Below are positions 1 through 15,225 of a stretch of DNA of 64,000 nucleotides, in pieces. Position 1 is the first letter of the stretch, and every line of letters begins with the position of its first letter. This DNA comes from Peptoniphilus lacrimalis DSM 7455 (GTDB taxonomy: Bacteria > Bacillota > Clostridia > Tissierellales > Peptoniphilaceae). Under the pieces are notes generated by a model. That model was not told the DNA's origin, searched no databases, and saw nothing but the letters and a program-made list of their open reading frames with translations. The translations under genes were made by a program, and so were the position numbers. The DNA lies in contig NZ_KB900373.1 of NCBI RefSeq assembly GCF_000378725.1, positions 1-64,000 of the forward strand. The letters are read 5' to 3'.

Positions 1-1601
1 CACAAACACCACAAGGATATGTATTAGTAACATTCGAAAAAGGTGACCACGGAACATTAAAGGGAATTGGAGCAGACGGACAACAAACAGAAAAAGCTGC
101 AAAACTAGCATACAACGTAAAAGATACAGCAACTTACAAAGACCTAAAAGCATACGAACCAACAATCGTAGCAGATAAAGAATGGAAAGTTGCAGATGCA
201 AAATGGGCTCCAGCTCTAGGTGCAGACGATGCTAAAGTAACAGCAAACAAACACGTAGCACAATACGCAGAAGATAATACACCTACTAAAAATAGTGAAG
301 ATTACGATCCTCATTATACTGATAAATCCGGTAAACCTGGTGAAACTGTACAAATAGATGCTCCAACATTTACTAAAAAAGGTGTTACTGGTAATGTACC
401 AGCACCAAATGGTACTACATTTACTAATAATAATCCAGGTCAAAGTGGTGTAACTGTTGATCCTAACACAGGAGCTATCACAGTTGTTATTCCACAAGAT
501 GCACCAGTTGGAAGCACTATAACTATTGAAGTTGATGTAACTTATCCAGATAGATCTAATGAAACTGTAGAAGTAAAAGTTACGGTAAGTGATAATACTC
601 AACCTAAACCAGAAGAGGATAAATCAAAAACTCCAATTGTTGATCCTGTAGATGATGGTGATACTTCTATTTCTGGTAAGGGTGAACCGGGTTCTGATAT
701 TATTATCAATATACCAGGAAAGGATCCTATAAAAACTACTGTTGATGATGGTGGAAAATGGATTGCTCCTATTGACCCAGCTCACGAAGGCGATGTTATT
801 AAAGTTGTTCAAATAGAAGTTGGTAAAAAACCTTCTGTTCCAGCTTATGTAACAGTTGGAGGACGTTCTATTATTGTTCCAAGTCATGATGACGGTGGTC
901 ATTGGTGGTTTGGTGGAGGTTCCTTCAAGCCTGTAGAAACAGAAGAACAAGTAATAGACAAGACTGAACATGGAATTCATATTGCCTATATATTTGGTTA
1001 TAAGGATCATACTTTCAGATGCGAAGGTAAGATAACTAGAGCTGAAGCGGCATCAATGATTGCTCATATAGCAAAACTTGACTTATCAGATAATTCTAAA
1101 CCTGACTTTAAGGATACTCCAAGTTCTTGGTATAATGCAGCTATAAATGCTATGGTTAAGAAAAATCTAATGTTTGCTGATAAGAACGGAAACTTTAGAC
1201 CTAACGAACCTATAACTCGTGGAGAATTTGCTAGGGCAATTCAATTTATTGACAAGGAAAACAAGAAGGAAGCTCCATTTATGGATATTAAGGGACATGA
1301 ATTTGAAGAAGCTATTAATCAAGCTTATGCAAATGGTAGAATCGCCGGTTATCCTGATGGCACATTCAAACCTGACGAGTCAATAACACGTGCTGAAGCA
1401 GTTACAATTCTTAACAATTTTGATGGACGTATGGTTAGAGAACGTGGAATTGAAGATGTTAAGAAAGATTTAATTAAATTTACTGATTTAAAACCTAGTC
1501 ATTGGGCATATTATGAAATAATTGAAGCGTCAAACTCTCATGCTTATTCAAGAATTTCTAATGACAGTAAGGAAGAAAAATGGTCAAACTTAATTAAGTA
1601 A
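1..1601 (+). CDS. Surface protein with Rib/Ig-like and S-layer homology domains, 5' partial
   Basis: The reading frame is open from base 3 of the window (the start lies upstream) to the TAA at 1599-1601, about 532 residues. In order it shows a repeat-like extracellular segment, a Rib/alpha-type module (with YPDRSNETVEVKVTV near 545-590), an Ig-like module beginning near 610 (SGKGEPGSDI), a Gly/His/Trp-rich linker (GGHWWFGGG) and three S-layer homology repeats, then the start of a fourth (HWAYYEIIEAS). SLH repeats bind pyruvylated secondary cell-wall polymer, so the C-terminus should anchor the protein to the wall (family knowledge). The first 290 bases use A/C-rich codons (ACA, CAA, GTA, CTA), while the rest uses T-ending codons (GGT, ACT, CCT), suggesting a mosaic gene. 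Its ligand or adhesive function cannot be judged without the N-terminus. Confidence 0.9.
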   Translation, partial: QTPQGYVLVTFEKGDHGTLKGIGADGQQTEKAAKLAYNVKDTATYKDLKAYEPTIVADKEWKVADAKWAPALGADDAKVTANKHVAQYAEDNTPTKNSEDYDPHYTDKSGKPGETVQIDAPTFTKKGVTGNVPAPNGTTFTNNNPGQSGVTVDPNTGAITVVIPQDAPVGSTITIEVDVTYPDRSNETVEVKVTVSDNTQPKPEEDKSKTPIVDPVDDGDTSISGKGEPGSDIIINIPGKDPIKTTVDDGGKWIAPIDPAHEGDVIKVVQIEVGKKPSVPAYVTVGGRSIIVPSHDDGGHWWFGGGSFKPVETEEQVIDKTEHGIHIAYIFGYKDHTFRCEGKITRAEAASMIAHIAKLDLSDNSKPDFKDTPSSWYNAAINAMVKKNLMFADKNGNFRPNEPITRGEFARAIQFIDKENKKEAPFMDIKGHEFEEAINQAYANGRIAGYPDGTFKPDESITRAEAVTILNNFDGRMVRERGIEDVKKDLIKFTDLKPSHWAYYEIIEASNSHAYSRISNDSKEEKWSNLIK

Positions 1602-1608
1602 GAATAAT

Positions 1609-1640
1609 AAAAAGATAGGGCCTAGCTCTATCTTTTTACT
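1609..1640 (+). terminator. Intrinsic terminator of the surface-protein gene
   Basis: AAAAAGATAG (1609-1618) pairs with CTATCTTTTT (1628-1637), eight bases after the stop codon. Confidence 0.85.
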
Positions 1641-1715
1641 TTATGCTTTTATGCTATGTATTGATTTTAAAATATATAATAGTTATGTATTTTTTATTAG
1701 TCTTTAGTATAAATA

Positions 1716-1757
1716 TAAAAAATGGCGGGATTAGTTATTGTAATCCGCCATTTTTTC
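1716..1757 (-). terminator. Terminator overlapping the end of the lipoprotein gene
   Basis: AATGGCGGGATTA and TAATCCGCCATT form a stem with one bulged base and A/T runs on both sides. The lipoprotein stop codon (1731-1733) lies inside the stem. The symmetry means it could also stop transcription arriving from the left. Confidence 0.8.
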
Positions 1758-2366
1758 GTTTAATAAAGATTTCATATTATAATTTTCTAATAACTGAAAA
1801 TTATTTATTATATCATAAGTGTTATTTGAGCTTAGTTCATAGACCATATTGTTAATTTTATATATGCCTTTTGCCTTAACTACTCTATTTATATGATCGC
1901 TTTTTACATATATGAGAAGTTTTGGTGAGTTTTCAAATTGGTAGCTATCATAGTATTCATATTCTTTTAATGAGTCTTTTGGTAAGTTTTTTATTGATGA
2001 AGATGTAGAGAATGTAATTTTTACTAGAAGGTCATCTTCTTTGTTATTAAAGTAGTTCTGCTCAACTGAATATATATTTACTTGTGAAATAGGTCCTCCA
2101 AAAAATTCTATGTAACTTACATAGATTTGGGCTGGATTTTTGAACAAGTCTATGCCTAAATGATTTTCAAATAATCTCAAGTCCCTGTATGTAACTTTGA
2201 ATTTGAAGTTTTTATCTTTTGATTTTGTGGTATTTTTTAAATTTTCAAAAGAAATTCTTACGGGCTTTACCCTATATACTTGGTCTATGTTATTATAATT
2301 TTTTGTAGATGATAGGGAGCAGGCACCTAATATTAATATTAAAGGAATTAAAAGTAGCTTTTTCAT
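1731..2366 (-). CDS. Predicted lipoprotein of unknown function
   Basis: The 211-residue protein starts with a type II signal peptide whose lipobox LGAC puts the lipidated Cys at residue 16, so it should be a membrane-anchored extracytoplasmic protein. RBS AGAGGTG precedes the ATG. The mature part is hydrophilic, rich in Asn, Lys, Tyr and Ser, and contains short beta-prone stretches (DLLVKITFSTSS, SPKLLIYVKS). I do not recognise a domain family. It is monocistronic and convergent with the surface-protein gene. It may be a small lineage-specific lipoprotein. Confidence 0.75.
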   Translation of the reverse strand: MKKLLLIPLILILGACSLSSTKNYNNIDQVYRVKPVRISFENLKNTTKSKDKNFKFKVTYRDLRLFENHLGIDLFKNPAQIYVSYIEFFGGPISQVNIYSVEQNYFNNKEDDLLVKITFSTSSSIKNLPKDSLKEYEYYDSYQFENSPKLLIYVKSDHINRVVKAKGIYKINNMVYELSSNNTYDIINNFQLLENYNMKSLLNEKMADYNN

Positions 2367-2435
2367 AGATTCACCTCTTTACTATTTTATCATACTCACA
2401 TATAAATATAAACAAATGGTTTTTTTAATATTTAG

Positions 2436-2463
2436 TTGATATATTTTATAAATTTAGTATAAT
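2436..2463 (+). promoter_or_regulatory. Sigma-A-type promoter of the hyd maturation operon
   Basis: TTGATA (2436-2441), 16-base spacer, TATAAT (2458-2463), followed 35 bases later by the first start codon of the operon. Confidence 0.65.
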
Positions 2464-2497
2464 TAAATTGTTAAGGATATAACAAAAGGAGGATTTT

Positions 2498-2734
2498 ATG
2501 ACTAGAATTGCAGTAATAGCTATCATTGTTACTAACCCAGATTCTGTTGAAAAATTAAACGAAGAACTTCACGAATTTAGACAATTTATTATTGGAAGGC
2601 TCGGAGTACCTTACAGAGAAAAAAATTTAAATATTATTTCTGTAGCCTTGGATGCTCCTATGGATACTATTAACGCACTTAACGGGAAAATTGGTGCTTT
2701 GCCAGGGGTATCATCAAAGACAATAATACAATAA
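2498..2734 (+). CDS. TM1266-type iron-only hydrogenase system regulator
   Basis: This 78-residue protein matches in length and pattern the TM1266 family, a small ACT/NikR-C-like beta-alpha-beta fold found beside [FeFe]-hydrogenase maturation genes and annotated as a putative regulator (family knowledge). Visible hallmarks are the opening strand RIAVIAIIV, the central GRLGVPYREKNLNIISVALDA and the ending GKIGALPGVSSKTI. RBS AAAGGAGG sits seven bases before the ATG. Its TAA overlaps the hydE ATG by one base (TAATG), so the two are translationally coupled. There is no DNA-binding N-terminal arm, so a direct repressor role is not evident. Confidence 0.85.
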   Translation: MTRIAVIAIIVTNPDSVEKLNEELHEFRQFIIGRLGVPYREKNLNIISVALDAPMDTINALNGKIGALPGVSSKTIIQ

Positions 2735-3762
2735 TGAATGTTGAGGATATTTGTAATAAGTTTTATCTGACTAAAAAGCTTTCTTTTGAGGAATTTAAGT
2801 TTCTTTATTGCTTAGAAGATTTTTCTTCCTTAAATGCCTTTGCTAGAAAATTAGCTTTGAAAAATTTTTCTAATAAAATTTATATTAGGGGTTTAATTGA
2901 AATTTCTACTGTATGCAAGAATAATTGTTATTATTGCGGTTTAAGAAGTGATAATAAAAATACTGAGAGAATTAGATTAAAAAAGGAAGATATTTTAAAA
3001 AGAGCTGAGGTTGGTTATAAGATGGGAATTAGAACCTTAGTTATGCAGGGAGGGGAAGACCCTTTTTATACTAAGGATTATATGGTTGATATTATTAAAA
3101 CTCTTAAAAATATTTATCCAGACATTGCCATCACCCTATCTCTTGGAGAAAGATCTTTTGAAGATTTTAAAGCTTTTAAAGAGGCTGGTGCTGATAGGTA
3201 TCTTTTGCGTCATGAAACTTATGATAGGGGTCATTATCAGGCACTGCATCCTCGTGAAATGTCTTTTGACAACAGAATCGAGTGCCTTTATAATTTAAAA
3301 TCTCTAGGTTTTCAAACTGGATGTGGTATGATGATAGGCTCTCCCTATCAAAAAATTGAAAATGTCTACAAAGATCTAGAACTAATTTTAAAATTAAAGC
3401 CTCAAATGGTTGGTCTTGGACCTTTTATTGCCCAAAAAGATTCGCCTTTTAATAATTATGAAAATGGTAAATTAAGTTATGTTCTTAAAATATTATCTAT
3501 TGTAAGAATTGCTGATGAAAAAGTTCTTTTGCCTGCGACTACAGCTCTTGGTACTATCCATAAGATGGGAAGGGAACTTGGAATTCTTGCTGGAGCTAAT
3601 GTTCTTATGCCAAATATTGGCAGTGAAAAATTGAGACAATCTTATAAGCTCTATGATAATAAAATTGGCACTAAACTTGAAAATGAAGATGATTTTTTCT
3701 CTCTGAGTTCTAAAGTTGGTGCAATAGGTTATGAACTCTCTATGTCTAGAGGGGATTATTGA
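2734..3762 (+). CDS. hydE: [FeFe]-hydrogenase H-cluster maturase HydE (radical SAM)
   Basis: HydE is a cytoplasmic radical S-adenosylmethionine enzyme that helps make the dithiomethylamine-bridged diiron precursor of the H-cluster. The 342-residue length is typical. The 4Fe-4S radical-SAM motif CxxxCxxC is at C61, C65 and C68 (CKNNCYYCG), and the SAM-binding segment VMQGGED follows near residue 108. The C-terminal region carries TTALGTI and NVLMPNIG, as in HydE and BioB-like proteins. It overlaps the upstream regulator by one base and is followed by hydG after 37 bases. HydE resembles biotin synthase and PylB, but the hydG and hydF neighbours settle the assignment. Confidence 0.95.
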   Translation: MNVEDICNKFYLTKKLSFEEFKFLYCLEDFSSLNAFARKLALKNFSNKIYIRGLIEISTVCKNNCYYCGLRSDNKNTERIRLKKEDILKRAEVGYKMGIRTLVMQGGEDPFYTKDYMVDIIKTLKNIYPDIAITLSLGERSFEDFKAFKEAGADRYLLRHETYDRGHYQALHPREMSFDNRIECLYNLKSLGFQTGCGMMIGSPYQKIENVYKDLELILKLKPQMVGLGPFIAQKDSPFNNYENGKLSYVLKILSIVRIADEKVLLPATTALGTIHKMGRELGILAGANVLMPNIGSEKLRQSYKLYDNKIGTKLENEDDFFSLSSKVGAIGYELSMSRGDY

Positions 3763-3799: not shown

Positions 3800-5215
3800 A
3801 TGTATAATAAATATTCAAGCGATCCTAATGAATTTATTAATCATGAGGAAATTTTAGACACTTTGGATTTTGCACAAAAAAATAAGAACAACAAGCTTAT
3901 GTTAGAAGAAATTCTAAACAAGGCTTCTTTAGAAAAAGGTTTGAGCCATAGGGAAGCGGCGGTGCTTCTCTTATCTGATGAAAAATGGGTCAAAGACGGT
4001 ATTTTTTCTCTTGCAAAAAAAATCAAAGAAAATTATTACGGAAATAGAATTGTTCTATTTGCACCTCTTTATCTTTCAAATTATTGCGTAAATCACTGCG
4101 TATATTGTCCCTACCATGCTAAAAACAAAAATATAGTTAGAATTAAATTGACACAGGAGCAGATAAAAAATGAGGTTATTGCTCTTCAAGATTTAGGTCA
4201 CAAAAGGCTTGCTCTTGAACTTGGTGAAGATCCAGTAAATAACCCAATTGATTACGTCTTGGAATCTATTGATACAATTTATTCGATTAAGCATAAAAAT
4301 GGCTCAATAAGACGTGTCAATGTAAATATTGCAGCTACTACTGTAGAAAATTATAAAAAATTACATGATAGAGGAATAGGTACATATATCTTATTCCAAG
4401 AAACTTACAATAAAAAATCTTATGAAAAACTTCATCCTTACGGACCTAAACACGATTATGATTATCACACAACAGCCATGGATAGAGCCCAAGAAGGCGG
4501 GATTGATGATGTTGGTATTGGAGTTTTGTTTGGACTTGAAACTTATAAATATGAGATGGTAGGTCTACTTATGCATGCTGAACACTTAGAGGCAACTTTT
4601 GGTGTTGGACCACACACTATTTCTGTTCCAAGAATCCAACCTGCTGATGATATTGACCCTAAATCTTTTAAAAATGCTCTTGCAGATGATATTTTTGAAA
4701 AAATTATTGGTCTTATTCGCTTGAGTGTTCCATATACTGGTATGATTATTTCTACAAGGGAATCAAAAATAGTAAGGGAAAAAGCTTTAGCTTTAGGAAT
4801 CAGTCAAATCTCAGGTGGTTCAAGAACTACAGTTGGCGGTTATGCCAATGGTAAGGATGTAAATTCTGCTCAATTTGAACTGGCAGATAATAGAACCCTT
4901 GAAGAAGTTGTAGATTGGCTTATTGAGCTTGGATATATACCATCATTTTGTACTGCTTGCTATAGGGCAGGCAGAACTGGAGATAGGTTTATGGCATTGT
5001 GCAAGTCTAAGCAAATATTAAACTGCTGTCAACCCAATGCTCTTATGACTTTAAAGGAATATTTACTTGATTATGGTTCAGATTTTTCTAAAGAATTAGG
5101 AGAAAAATTAATTGATCATGAACTTAAGAAAATTCCAAGAGATTCTGTAAGAGAAAGAGCAAAAACAATGATAGCTCAGATGGCTTATGAAGGAAAGAGA
5201 GATTTTAGATTTTAA
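3800..5215 (+). CDS. hydG: [FeFe]-hydrogenase maturase HydG (tyrosine lyase)
   Basis: HydG cleaves tyrosine to p-cresol and generates the CO and CN ligands of the H-cluster. The 471-residue protein has the N-terminal radical-SAM cluster CxxxCxxC at C96, C100 and C103, and the C-terminal CxxC-x22-C motif that binds the second (dangler-iron) cluster at C384, C387 and C410. Both are needed for full activity in characterised HydG proteins. RBS AAAGGAG lies just upstream of the ATG. The stop overlaps the hydF start by one base (TAATG). ThiH is the nearest alternative, but it lacks the second cluster motif. Confidence 0.96.
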   Translation: MYNKYSSDPNEFINHEEILDTLDFAQKNKNNKLMLEEILNKASLEKGLSHREAAVLLLSDEKWVKDGIFSLAKKIKENYYGNRIVLFAPLYLSNYCVNHCVYCPYHAKNKNIVRIKLTQEQIKNEVIALQDLGHKRLALELGEDPVNNPIDYVLESIDTIYSIKHKNGSIRRVNVNIAATTVENYKKLHDRGIGTYILFQETYNKKSYEKLHPYGPKHDYDYHTTAMDRAQEGGIDDVGIGVLFGLETYKYEMVGLLMHAEHLEATFGVGPHTISVPRIQPADDIDPKSFKNALADDIFEKIIGLIRLSVPYTGMIISTRESKIVREKALALGISQISGGSRTTVGGYANGKDVNSAQFELADNRTLEEVVDWLIELGYIPSFCTACYRAGRTGDRFMALCKSKQILNCCQPNALMTLKEYLLDYGSDFSKELGEKLIDHELKKIPRDSVRERAKTMIAQMAYEGKRDFRF

Positions 5216-6387
5216 TGGAAGTTTCAAAGGGAAATAGGATTCATATAGGTATTTTTGGAAAAGTAAATAGTGGCAAGTCTTCTCTTATAAATCTTTTAGC
5301 AGCTAGGGAAGTATCAATAGTTTCAGATAGAGAAGGAACTACTACTGATAGTGTATATAAGTCTATGGAATTTTTGGGACTAGGACCTGTAACTATAATG
5401 GATACTCCAGGGGTTTGTGATAAAAGTTTTTTAGGTAAGCTCAGGGAACAGAGATTAGAAAGAGATATTGAAAAGGCAGATATTGCCATAATTTTATTTT
5501 CTGATTCTGATATTGGAAGAGAGCTTGAACTCATAAAAAAACTTAAAAAATCAAAAATTTTACTTGTAATTAATAAGGTAGATATTTTATCAGCCCAAGA
5601 AAAAGAAAATATTTATAAGAATTTAAAAGATTTGCCCTTTAAAATTATAGAAATTTCTACAAAAGAAAAAAATGGAATAGAAGAATTAAAAAAAGAACTT
5701 GTCAAATTAAAACCAGAGGAGGCTCCTTTAATTTTTGATGGTCTTGTAAAAAAAGGCGACAGAGTTTTACTCATCATGCCACAGGATATTGCAGCTCCAA
5801 AAAAAAGACTGATTTTGCCTCAGGTGGAATCTATAAGGGAACTTTTAGATAGAGAAGCACTTTTATATATTGCAAAGGTGGAAAATATGGAAGATATGCT
5901 TTCATCCTTAAAAGAGGCGCCTGATTTAATAGTTACTGATTCTCAAGTTTTCCAAGATGTTTATAAACTAAAACCGGAAAAATCAAAACTAACTTCTTTT
6001 TCTGTATTATTTGCAAAAATGAAGGGTGACATTGACACTTATATTAAAGGTACAGAAGTTTTTTCAAAAATTGATGAAAATTCAAAAATTTTAATAGCTG
6101 AATGTTGCACCCACGCACCTTTAAGCGAAGATATTGGAAGAGTTAAGATTCCAAATATGTTAAAGAAAAAATATGGAGAAAATTTGCAGGTAGATTTTCA
6201 AAGTGGAGCATCCCTACCAAAAGATATTGAAAAATATGATTTAATTATTCAATGTGGTGGATGCATGCTGACAAGAAATAATATATTAAATAGGATTGAA
6301 AAAGCAAAAGTTTTAAATGTACCCATTACAAACTACGGGCTGACTATTGCTTATTTTAAAAAAATTCTTGATAAAATAACTATATAA
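5215..6387 (+). CDS. hydF: [FeFe]-hydrogenase maturation GTPase HydF
   Basis: HydF is the scaffold GTPase that carries the diiron precursor and delivers it to apo-hydrogenase. At 390 residues it has a GTPase domain (P-loop GKVNSGKS at 15-22, G3 DTPG near 63-66, G4 NKVD near 119-122), a dimerisation domain, and a C-terminal iron-sulfur domain with C298-T-H300 and C347-G-G-C350. The family motif is CxH-x(46-53)-HCxxC; here the residue before C347 is Gln346 instead of His, an exchange that would alter the fourth cluster ligand. No hydA gene follows. The operon ends in a strong terminator seven bases later. Confidence 0.95.
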   Translation: MEVSKGNRIHIGIFGKVNSGKSSLINLLAAREVSIVSDREGTTTDSVYKSMEFLGLGPVTIMDTPGVCDKSFLGKLREQRLERDIEKADIAIILFSDSDIGRELELIKKLKKSKILLVINKVDILSAQEKENIYKNLKDLPFKIIEISTKEKNGIEELKKELVKLKPEEAPLIFDGLVKKGDRVLLIMPQDIAAPKKRLILPQVESIRELLDREALLYIAKVENMEDMLSSLKEAPDLIVTDSQVFQDVYKLKPEKSKLTSFSVLFAKMKGDIDTYIKGTEVFSKIDENSKILIAECCTHAPLSEDIGRVKIPNMLKKKYGENLQVDFQSGASLPKDIEKYDLIIQCGGCMLTRNNILNRIEKAKVLNVPITNYGLTIAYFKKILDKITI

Positions 6388-6534: not shown

Positions 6535-7071
6535 TTAATCAATTTCTTTAATTTTTACAACTTTTGCCGGCAGACCAACTGCTGTGGCACCCTTTGGAAC
6601 ATCAGAAAGAACCAAGGCACCAGCACCAATTTTTGCAAAATCTCCCACCTTTACAGGACCAAGAATTGTGGCGCCAGTTCCTATTGTTACATAGTTACCA
6701 ACAGTTGGGTGTCTTTTGTGGTCCTTTTCGTTACCTGTACCTCCAAGAGTTATATTGTGGTAAAAATGGCAATAATCCCCAACTTCTGCTGTTTCTCCTA
6801 TAACAACAGCCATGCCGTGGTCTATGAATAAATTTTTGCCTATTTTTGCTCCAGGGTGAATTTCAATACCTGTCCTTCTTCTAGAAATTTGAGAAATCCA
6901 TCTTGCTAAAATCTTGTGGTTTTTATTGTAGAAATGGTGGGCAATCCTGTGATAAATCATGGCACGAACTATTGGATATAAAAAGACTGCTTCAAAAAGA
7001 CTTTGGCATGCAGGGTCTTGGTCCAGGATAAATTCGCCATATTCTTTTAAGGCTTTAAAATATTTAATCAT
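6535..7071 (-). CDS. cysE: Serine O-acetyltransferase
   Basis: CysE acetylates L-serine with acetyl-CoA to O-acetylserine, the substrate of CysK. The 178-residue protein is the short form: a short N-terminal helical part, then hexapeptide repeats of the left-handed beta-helix ([36 protein letters not shown]) with the catalytic His-rich DHG segment and the TLGGTG loop. Its ATG lies inside the last codons of cysK (8-base overlap), so translation is coupled and the two proteins can form the cysteine synthase complex. It shares the cysK promoter and attenuator. Confidence 0.94.
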
Positions 7072-7945
7072 TGAATAATTCTGTGGACAGGTATCTTTCT
7101 CCCGTATCGGGAAGAACGGTTACGATATTTCCTCCAAGTTTTTCTTGCATTTTTAATGCAGCGACAACATTAGCACCTGAAGATATACCAACTAAAAGAC
7201 CTTCTTCTTTTGATAGACGTCTTGCCATATCTATAGCATCATCAGATTTAACTGTGATAACTTCATCTAATAAATCTACATCTAAAACTTTAGGAATAAA
7301 ATTAGCACCTATTCCTTGAATTTTGTGACTGCCGGATTTTCCTTGACTTAAAAGGGGAGATTCGTAAGGCTCCATTGCCCAAATTTTAATATTTTTGTCT
7401 TGTTCTTTTAAATATCTTCCTACGCCTGTAACAGTTCCGCCTGTTCCAAATCCTGCTACAAATCCATTTATATCCTTTAGATCATTATAAATTTCAGGAC
7501 CTGTTGTTTTATAATGTGCAAGAGCATTGTCTTGATTATCAAATTGATTAGGCATATAATAAGCTCCATTTTCAACAAGTTCTTTTGCTTTTTCTACTGA
7601 TCCTGCCATGCCACCTTCTTTAATTAAAATTACTTCAGCTCCATAAGCTTTGATTAATTTTACCCTTTCAATAGACATGGATGAAGGCATTGTTAATACT
7701 ACTGGGAAACCCAAAGTTCTACCTATTAGGGCAAGACCTATGCCGGTATTACCACTTGTAGGCTCAACAATTTTCATGCCTTCTTTTAGTTCTCCTCTTT
7801 CTATTGCACCCATAATCATTTGATAAGCAGCCCTATCCTTAATTGAGCCTGCTGGATTTGATTTTTCTACTTTGACATAAATATTTTTGCTGATGTTTTC
7901 TAATTGTACTAAATTTGTTTTTCCTATGGTTTCTAATAATTTCAT
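7064..7945 (-). CDS. cysK: Cysteine synthase (O-acetylserine sulfhydrylase)
   Basis: CysK is a PLP enzyme that makes L-cysteine from O-acetylserine and sulfide. The 293-residue protein has the PLP lysine in NPAGSIKDR (K37), the substrate loop PTSGNTG (63-69), the phosphate-binding GTGGTVTG loop near 167-174 and the C-terminal GISSGAN. RBS GAAAGGA precedes the ATG by 9 bases. The upstream leader carries a consensus promoter, a Cys-codon leader peptide and a Rho-independent terminator, so the operon is probably controlled by attenuation in response to cysteinyl-tRNA supply. It is followed by cysE with an 8-base overlap. Confidence 0.95.
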
Positions 7946-7968: not shown

Positions 7969-7999
7969 AAAAAAGGGATATATGTAAAACATATATCCC
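7969..7999 (-). terminator. Leader terminator (attenuator) in front of cysK
   Basis: On the minus strand GGGATATATGT and ACATATATCCC form an 11-bp perfect stem with a three-base loop, followed by T6. It lies between the leader peptide and the cysK RBS, so read-through is required for cysKE expression. Seen directly; regulation is inferred. Confidence 0.85.
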
Positions 8000-8038
8000 G
8001 AATAAACTTTGGAAAGATTTTACACATTCAAAGAAGCC

Positions 8039-8098
8039 CTATTTGTAGATAGGACAACAGAATGCCATAGTTGAATTTTTTAAAAATAAATTTTTCAT
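8039..8098 (-). CDS. Cysteine-codon leader peptide of the cysKE operon
   Basis: A 19-codon ORF reads MKNLFLKNSTMAFCCPIYK and ends in TAG. Codons 14 and 15 (8054-8059) are tandem TGT cysteine codons. A purine-rich AGAAAGAG lies about 11 bases before the ATG as a weak RBS. It starts about 20 bases after the predicted transcription start, and is followed 39 bases after its stop by the leader terminator. A small hairpin, CCTAT with ATAGG (6-base loop), spans codon 16 to just past the stop, where a ribosome stalled at the Cys codons would cover it. This is the textbook arrangement of an amino-acid attenuator, with cysteine as the sensed amino acid. It is too short for ORF callers. Translation itself is unproven. 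Confidence 0.72.
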   Translation of the reverse strand: MKNLFLKNSTMAFCCPIYK

Positions 8099-8124
8099 AA
8101 GTAATCAACTCTTTCTTGAAGATA

Positions 8125-8153
8125 AGCATACAATAAAAACTATATTATGTCAA
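8125..8153 (-). promoter_or_regulatory. Promoter of the cysKE operon
   Basis: On the minus strand TTGACA (8153-8148), a 17-base spacer and TATGCT (8130-8125). Transcription would start near 8118 and give a leader of about 170 bases before cysK. Confidence 0.75.
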
Positions 8154-14874: not shown

Positions 14875-15225
14875 TGGTGGAGGCGGTGAGAGTCGAACTC
14901 ACGTCCGAAGATTCGTCTGCAAAAAGCTTCTCCGAGTGCAGACTATTTTTAAATTTTCTCCTAGTCTTTTAAATAATCAAAAAAATCGTAGGATATTGTC
15001 ATAAGTTCCGTCCTGCATTATGACAACTTGTGCAGTGCGGTTCCCCACAAAATTTGATACCTAGATTTTAAAGCGTGGGCACTTTAAGCTAGATAAGCTA
15101 CCCTTAGGCAGCTAGTGCGAAATTATTTTCGTCGTTTATTTTTATGAACCATTTTAGCGTTGTGTGATTCATCAACGACTCGCTACTTAAGGCTCAGAAT
15201 CCCCGTCGAAACCATTTTCGCCCCC
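14875..15225 (-). ncRNA. ssrA: tmRNA (transfer-messenger RNA)
   Basis: On the minus strand the RNA begins GGGGGCGAAAATGGTTTCGA and ends with the tRNA-like T arm and CCTCCACCA. The first seven bases (GGGGGCG) pair with CGCCTCC before ACCA to make the acceptor stem, and CCA is encoded. The tag reading frame ends AAC GAC GAA AAT AAT TTC GCA CTA GCT GCC TAA, giving a degradation tag ending NDENNFALAA, where the ALAA tail is typical. tmRNA rescues stalled ribosomes together with SmpB. Length is 351 bases. Ends were set from the acceptor stem. Confidence 0.97.

Follow-up and report, generated by a model that had tools for sequence, protein, structure and literature searches.

The cysK-cysE operon of Peptoniphilus lacrimalis DSM 7455 is very probably controlled by a cysteine-specific leader peptide, through ribosome-mediated transcription attenuation that responds to charged tRNA-Cys. 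The operon lies on the minus strand of the 64,000-nt stretch of contig NZ_KB900373.1 that was analyzed (referred to as the window), and the elements that such an attenuator would use are listed in Table 1. The promoter, the 19-codon ORF with its TGT TGT pair and the 11-bp terminator with its run of six T residues all lie where the original prediction had placed them, and comparison of homologous leaders supports its main claim, attenuation by a cysteine-codon leader peptide. The Shine–Dalgarno (SD) sequence of the leader ORF is weak in the window and clearer in several relatives (GAGG, AAAGGAG, AAGGAGG). Together, the start codon, the SD-like site and the clustered codons for the end product appear to form the short ORF characteristic of a leader-peptide attenuator. 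The terminator is located as in such attenuators, between the leader ORF and the first structural gene, just before the ribosome-binding site of cysK. The regulated genes also fit, as cysK and cysE make the amino acid that the leader codons encode; cysE overlaps the end of cysK by 8 nt and lies directly downstream of it in all 17 loci in which the leader was found.

Table 1. Leader elements and structural genes of the cysK-cysE operon in the window (z scores are relative to shuffled sequences).
Feature	Position	Strand	Details and basis
Promoter, sigma-70 type, TTGACA-17-TATGCT	8125..8153	-	10/12 consensus match
SD-like site of leader ORF, AAGAAAGAG	8109..8117	-	sequence; 10 nt before ATG
Leader ORF, MKNLFLKNSTMAFCCPIYK	8039..8098	-	sequence; 19 codons, ATG 8098, stop TAG 8041-8039
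Regulatory Cys codons 14-15, TGT TGT	8054..8059	-	sequence; adjacent-Cys runs also in relatives
Hairpin P1, overall	8024..8065	-	fold, z -3.8, compensatory changes
P1 outer helix, GCAUUC/GAAUGU	8065-8060/8029-8024	-	fold
P1 inner helix, GUCCUAU/AUAGGGC	8055-8049/8042-8036	-	fold; nested within outer helix
Candidate antiterminator, 8029-8021/7995-7987	7987..8029	-	masked fold; energy no better than shuffles
Intrinsic terminator	7969..7999	-	stem 7999-7975 (11 pairs), loop 3, T6 7974-7969; z -4.7, covarying stem
cysK, cysteine synthase A	7064..7945	-	TIGR01139 396.3 bits (cut-off 350.95); ATG 7945
cysE, serine O-acetyltransferase	6535..7071	-	NF041874 221 bits (cut-off 150); TIGR01172 211.6 bits (cut-off 210.65)

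The arrangement is not a product of chance. When the 208-nt leader was shuffled 4000 times with its dinucleotides preserved, an ATG-started ORF of 8–45 codons with two adjacent Cys codons arose in 47 cases, and P1 and the terminator of the window both have negative z scores (Table 1). The window has 59 ATG-started ORFs that are 100 aa or longer and have 250 nt of upstream sequence; of these, cysK alone is preceded by a tandem-Cys ORF (ATG, up to 250 nt upstream). By the same definition, such an ORF is present in none of the 62 other cysK upstream regions, and 17/17 leader loci have an ATG-started one. A scan of a 2-kb stretch returned 16 promoter sites compared to 8.7 in shuffles, and 2 terminators compared to 1.5; on its own, the promoter scan is weak evidence. 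TTGACA is found in 13 of 16 aligned leaders, being absent from L011, L013 and L017 (loci carry the prefix L, genomes G). At the gathering score, an Rfam scan of the leader found no family, T-box included, and a tmRNA at 14875–15225 is the sole match in the window.

The leader is widespread among the closest relatives. In the genome collection, the window genome has 13 congeners, including Peptoniphilus raoultii KHD4 (Peptoniphilaceae), and in all 14 genomes of the genus cysK is preceded by a leader ORF whose adjacent Cys codons number two or three. Outside the genus, it is also present in the genomes G044, G045 and G151, which belong to three different genera of Peptoniphilaceae. These 17 carriers were found among 79 cysK upstream regions, 75 from the family and four from other families of the order; of the 69 family genomes in which a cysK match was seen, G132 (partial) was left out, and the upstream sequence of L090 comprises 192 nt only. 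A covariance model of the leader matches 17 of 130 family genomes at E values of 9.3e-9 or better (next match 0.0072) and returns the identical 17 from 249 genomes of the order, with one strong match per genome, each immediately before cysK; as the model was built from these same leaders and the search filters were strict, a diverged leader could be missed. The weak matches (E 0.007–1) were taken as chance, with no tandem-Cys ORF in the 15 checked (L138–L152; match strand, ORF starts between 220 nt before and 150 nt after the locus middle). If any start codon within 330 nt is allowed, 18 of the 79 loci have an ORF with two adjacent Cys codons, L113 included; that of L113 was dropped, as it starts 293 nt upstream and is absent when an ATG within 250 nt is required.

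In agreement with the original prediction, the ORF, the Cys codons and the terminator are kept together at each of the 17 leader loci, and the helices show compensatory changes. The Cys run consists of two codons in L001 and L002 and of three in the other 15 loci, in frame with an ATG, and the first Cys is codon 13–18 depending on the locus and the start chosen (a longer start, making it codon 25, is possible in L010 and L016). The peptide reads MKNLFLKNSTMAFCCPIYK in the window, MKNLNNFKNFTSQAFCCCSIKNFIGLI in the largest clade and MFLQLTSKTPHFLCCCSMTFA in G044. One finding counts against a leader peptide: the peptide ahead of the Cys run drifts, with four amino-acid variants compared to two silent ones across 11 close loci of like length. 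This drift, together with the conservation of P1 and the UGUUGU loop, which is among the highest in the leader, would suit a riboswitch-like RNA, in which P1 binds a ligand or protein and the seemingly coding Cys triplets are just unpaired loop sequence. However, the loop of L001 and L002 is shorter by exactly one codon, one Cys codon of L017 carries a synonymous TGT>TGC change, an ATG preceded by an SD-like stretch shares its frame with the loop in those loci that were read, and none of the 17 leaders matches an Rfam family at the gathering score. Such a sensor is thus improbable. An AUG is present in the 3' strand of P1 in all 17 leaders (8027–8025 in the window) and is immediately followed by UGA, as a start-stop pair, in 11 of 13 main-clade loci; its conservation may be a mere by-product of P1 pairing.

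The original prediction had also placed a hairpin, CCTAT/ATAGG, right after the Cys codons. This hairpin is real, but it is the inner part of the larger P1, which encloses these codons. As in the window, each of the 17 leaders folds with its Cys codons between the outer and the inner helix, on the 5' side of P1; the inner helix has 7–11 pairs, and the outer helix extends into the first Cys codon in L002, L013 and L017. Across leaders, z scores against shuffles range from -3.8 to -5.6 for P1 and from -4.5 to -7.2 for the terminator. Over the three helices, eight pairs are changed on both sides in an unguided alignment compared to 2.5 in shuffles (none of 500 reached eight), and nine compared to 2.5 in a model-guided alignment. 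Most of these pairs are in the terminator (six and five, respectively), and the outer helix contributes two in each alignment, where the double change of L017 is the only clean one: the row of L013 is out of register at the outer helix in both alignments, so that three pairs are scored as broken and its two aligned double changes are not real partners. The outer-helix pair beside the Cys codons is C-G in most leaders and G-C in L017, and when the outer helix of L013 is read from its fold, five of six pairs are changed on both sides with pairing kept. Thus, a covariation-supported hairpin lies over the regulatory codons, as in a leader-peptide attenuator (by alignment in L017, by fold only in L013). 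The terminator, P1 and the Cys codons are all well supported. A further hairpin over the leader start, P0, is not claimed (z 0 to -1.3 in 15 of 17 leaders; -2.3 to -2.4 in L011 and L013).

These elements suggest how the attenuator would operate. When charged tRNA-Cys is plentiful, the ribosome would pass the Cys codons and P1 would form behind it, leaving the 5' arm of the terminator free, so that RNA polymerase would stop. Conversely, when charged tRNA-Cys is scarce, a ribosome stalled at the Cys codons would cover the GCAUUC strand and block P1, and the downstream RNA thereby freed could pair with the 5' arm of the terminator and allow transcription into cysKE. In folds of the window leader with a ribosome mask on the Cys codons and the RNA cut before the 3' arm of the terminator, P1 is removed and pairing of the terminator 5' arm rises from 0.38 to 0.74–0.83. 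The candidate antiterminator in this fold uses the GAAUGU strand of P1 together with the 5' arm of the terminator. With a ribosome placed at the stop codon, arm pairing is 0.44, 0.85 or 0.48 depending on the assumed footprint, and in L002, the nearest relative, the Cys mask shifts it little (0.43 to 0.46–0.49). The antiterminator of the original prediction, UUUGAAU paired with AUUCGGG (8032–8026/8003–7997, overlapping the candidate of Table 1), was rejected because a duplex that includes it is no stronger than shuffled sequence (p 0.66–0.72). When the RNA beyond the stalled ribosome is shuffled, 15 of the 17 leaders show more arm pairing than the shuffled mean, with 0.03–0.33 of the shuffles as high, and L002 and L008 show less; in energy, the antiterminators are no different from shuffled sequence (mean z -0.01, 17 leaders). 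In full-length RNA, the terminator forms with a probability of 0.98 in every state of the window leader and of 0.70–1.00 across leaders, and this dominance means that any switch must be kinetic, acting during transcription. An antiterminator, of whatever form, is likely but unproven by these folding models.

The antiterminator may take a different form in the largest clade. In 13 close loci, a long hairpin that begins right after P1 engages the terminator 5' arm (z -0.7 to -3.3), and it forms about equally well whether the RNA is free or masked at the Cys codons (differences up to about 0.2). As this candidate abuts P1, the antiterminator there may be blocked not by P1 but by a ribosome at the stop codon. 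In this variant of leader-peptide control, ribosome position would be sensed without mutual exclusion of P1 and antiterminator: a terminating ribosome would sterically block the hairpin just after P1, and a stall at the Cys codons would free it. Consistent with this idea, a stop-codon mask with a 14-nt lead weakens the hairpin and lowers arm pairing at the 11 loci with a UGA stop (for instance, from 0.78 to 0.35 in L003), whereas a 9-nt lead has little effect (0.75 in L003), so that the result hangs on the assumed footprint. No such effect is seen in L009 and L011, the two of the 13 close loci that stop earlier, at a UAG 24 nt after the first Cys codon compared to 36 nt for UGA, and UAG is likewise the stop of the four diverged leaders, 18–27 nt after that codon. 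Blocking by the terminating ribosome is a tentative proposal, less probable than not for the clade.

Relatives without the leader bear on what it may have replaced. A T-box precedes cysK in 7 of the 79 Rfam-scanned loci, all among the 62 that lack the leader: L027, L028 and L029 from other families of the order, and L109, L110, L111 and L116 from Peptoniphilaceae. All seven have GTGGAAC and, at the specifier place, GAAGUGC, which we take from the known T-box layout to be a cysteine specifier (UGC). The original prediction had seen no T-box in the window leader; the empty Rfam scan agrees, and Cys T-boxes occupy the same place in these seven relatives. No locus of the 79 has both T-box and leader, and the other 55 have neither at the gathering score. 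T-boxes as such are present in the genus, with 10–22 matches per genome (E up to 0.001); for cysS of the window genome, the stretch scanned gave no Rfam match. This distribution also bears on another account, in which the terminator is constitutive and partial, the ORF is incidental and cysKE answers to a repressor. CymR-type control of cysteine metabolism is described for Bacillales in PMC2940859, and gives this account a precedent. The joint presence of Cys ORF, P1 and terminator at 17 loci, the covariation and the mutual exclusion of leader and Cys T-boxes make it highly improbable.

The leader may have a single origin, judging from the CysK tree, on which the leader-bearing rows require three label changes (mean of 500 shuffles 15.7, none as low). 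The non-bearers L014, L073 and L018 share an unresolved fork with 14 bearers; the next fork out holds L019 together with a clade of 14 non-bearers. The leader also seems to have moved between genera. The CysK of G151, a genome assigned to another genus, is sister to that of G012, and positions 1247–3039 of its locus L072, comprising leader, cysK and cysE, are 89% identical to L003; no match to L003 is detectable in the flanks of L072 (about 1.2 and 0.8 kb compared), whereas for the congener L005 the match to L003 extends into the upstream flank too. From these alignments, a single transfer of leader and cysKE between genera, as an operon with its attenuator, is probable. More speculative, and doubtful when taken as a whole, is the combined proposal that the Cys-codon attenuator replaced a Cys T-box before cysKE in one family, spreads by operon transfer and relies in the main clade on a stop-codon ribosome that blocks the P1-abutting antiterminator. 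By eye, the leaderless sister loci L014 and L073 resemble each other in a stretch within the final 60 nt upstream of cysK, where a small hairpin, CATAGT..ACTATAG, might form immediately ahead of the cysK SD; this stretch is possibly another control element.

Cysteine leader peptides have been described in other phyla. The uORFC-8-2 motif upstream of cysS in Rhodobacterales (PMC8632094) is proposed to act by ribosome-mediated attenuation. Like the window leader, it has two tandem Cys codons, usually codons 14–15, a first stem that contains them and a U run consistent with a terminator; unlike it, the motif belongs to Alphaproteobacteria, precedes cysS and uses mostly UGC. Our guess is that the two are convergent. 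Short ORFs with a run of Cys codons also precede cysteine genes in Mycobacterium, Propionibacterium and Bifidobacterium, and PMC1262725 describes these leaders as translation attenuation or possibly Rho-dependent; they resemble the window leader in ORF and gene context, but they are actinobacterial and no conserved terminator was found in them. Mycobacterial polycysteine short ORFs are, by title, cysteine-responsive attenuators (Canestrari 2020, cited in PMC13236596). Within the Firmicutes, PMC2965389 and PMC9413887 report His leader-peptide attenuators in some species, which, like the window leader, occupy a place where relatives use a T-box or repressor; they differ in amino acid and genes, and the likeness is one of description only. 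A further counterpart is cysK-cysE of Clostridium perfringens, placed under a cysteine T-box in PMC2940859: it shares the operon, the tRNA-Cys charging signal and premature termination, but there the RNA itself pairs with the tRNA and so senses it directly. The literature searched, which lay mostly outside subscription papers, showed no Cys leader peptide upstream of cysK in any of the Firmicutes. With the leader described here, control by cysteine leader peptides would reach Firmicutes of the Peptoniphilus group as well.

Members of the Peptoniphilus group are human commensals and opportunists. A single operon, with what is very probably a single signal, tRNA-Cys charging, would be read in one family either by a T-box or by a translating ribosome, and the cysK loci of Peptoniphilaceae thereby offer a compact natural series on how one RNA sensor replaces another.

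Two observations concern the operon and its neighbors. In the window, hydG and hydF ([FeFe] hydrogenase maturation; 3800–6387) adjoin cysKE in convergent orientation. The cysE of L009 is 59% identical to that of the window, compared to 73–79% for other congeners, and judging from this divergence the second gene of that locus has possibly been replaced.
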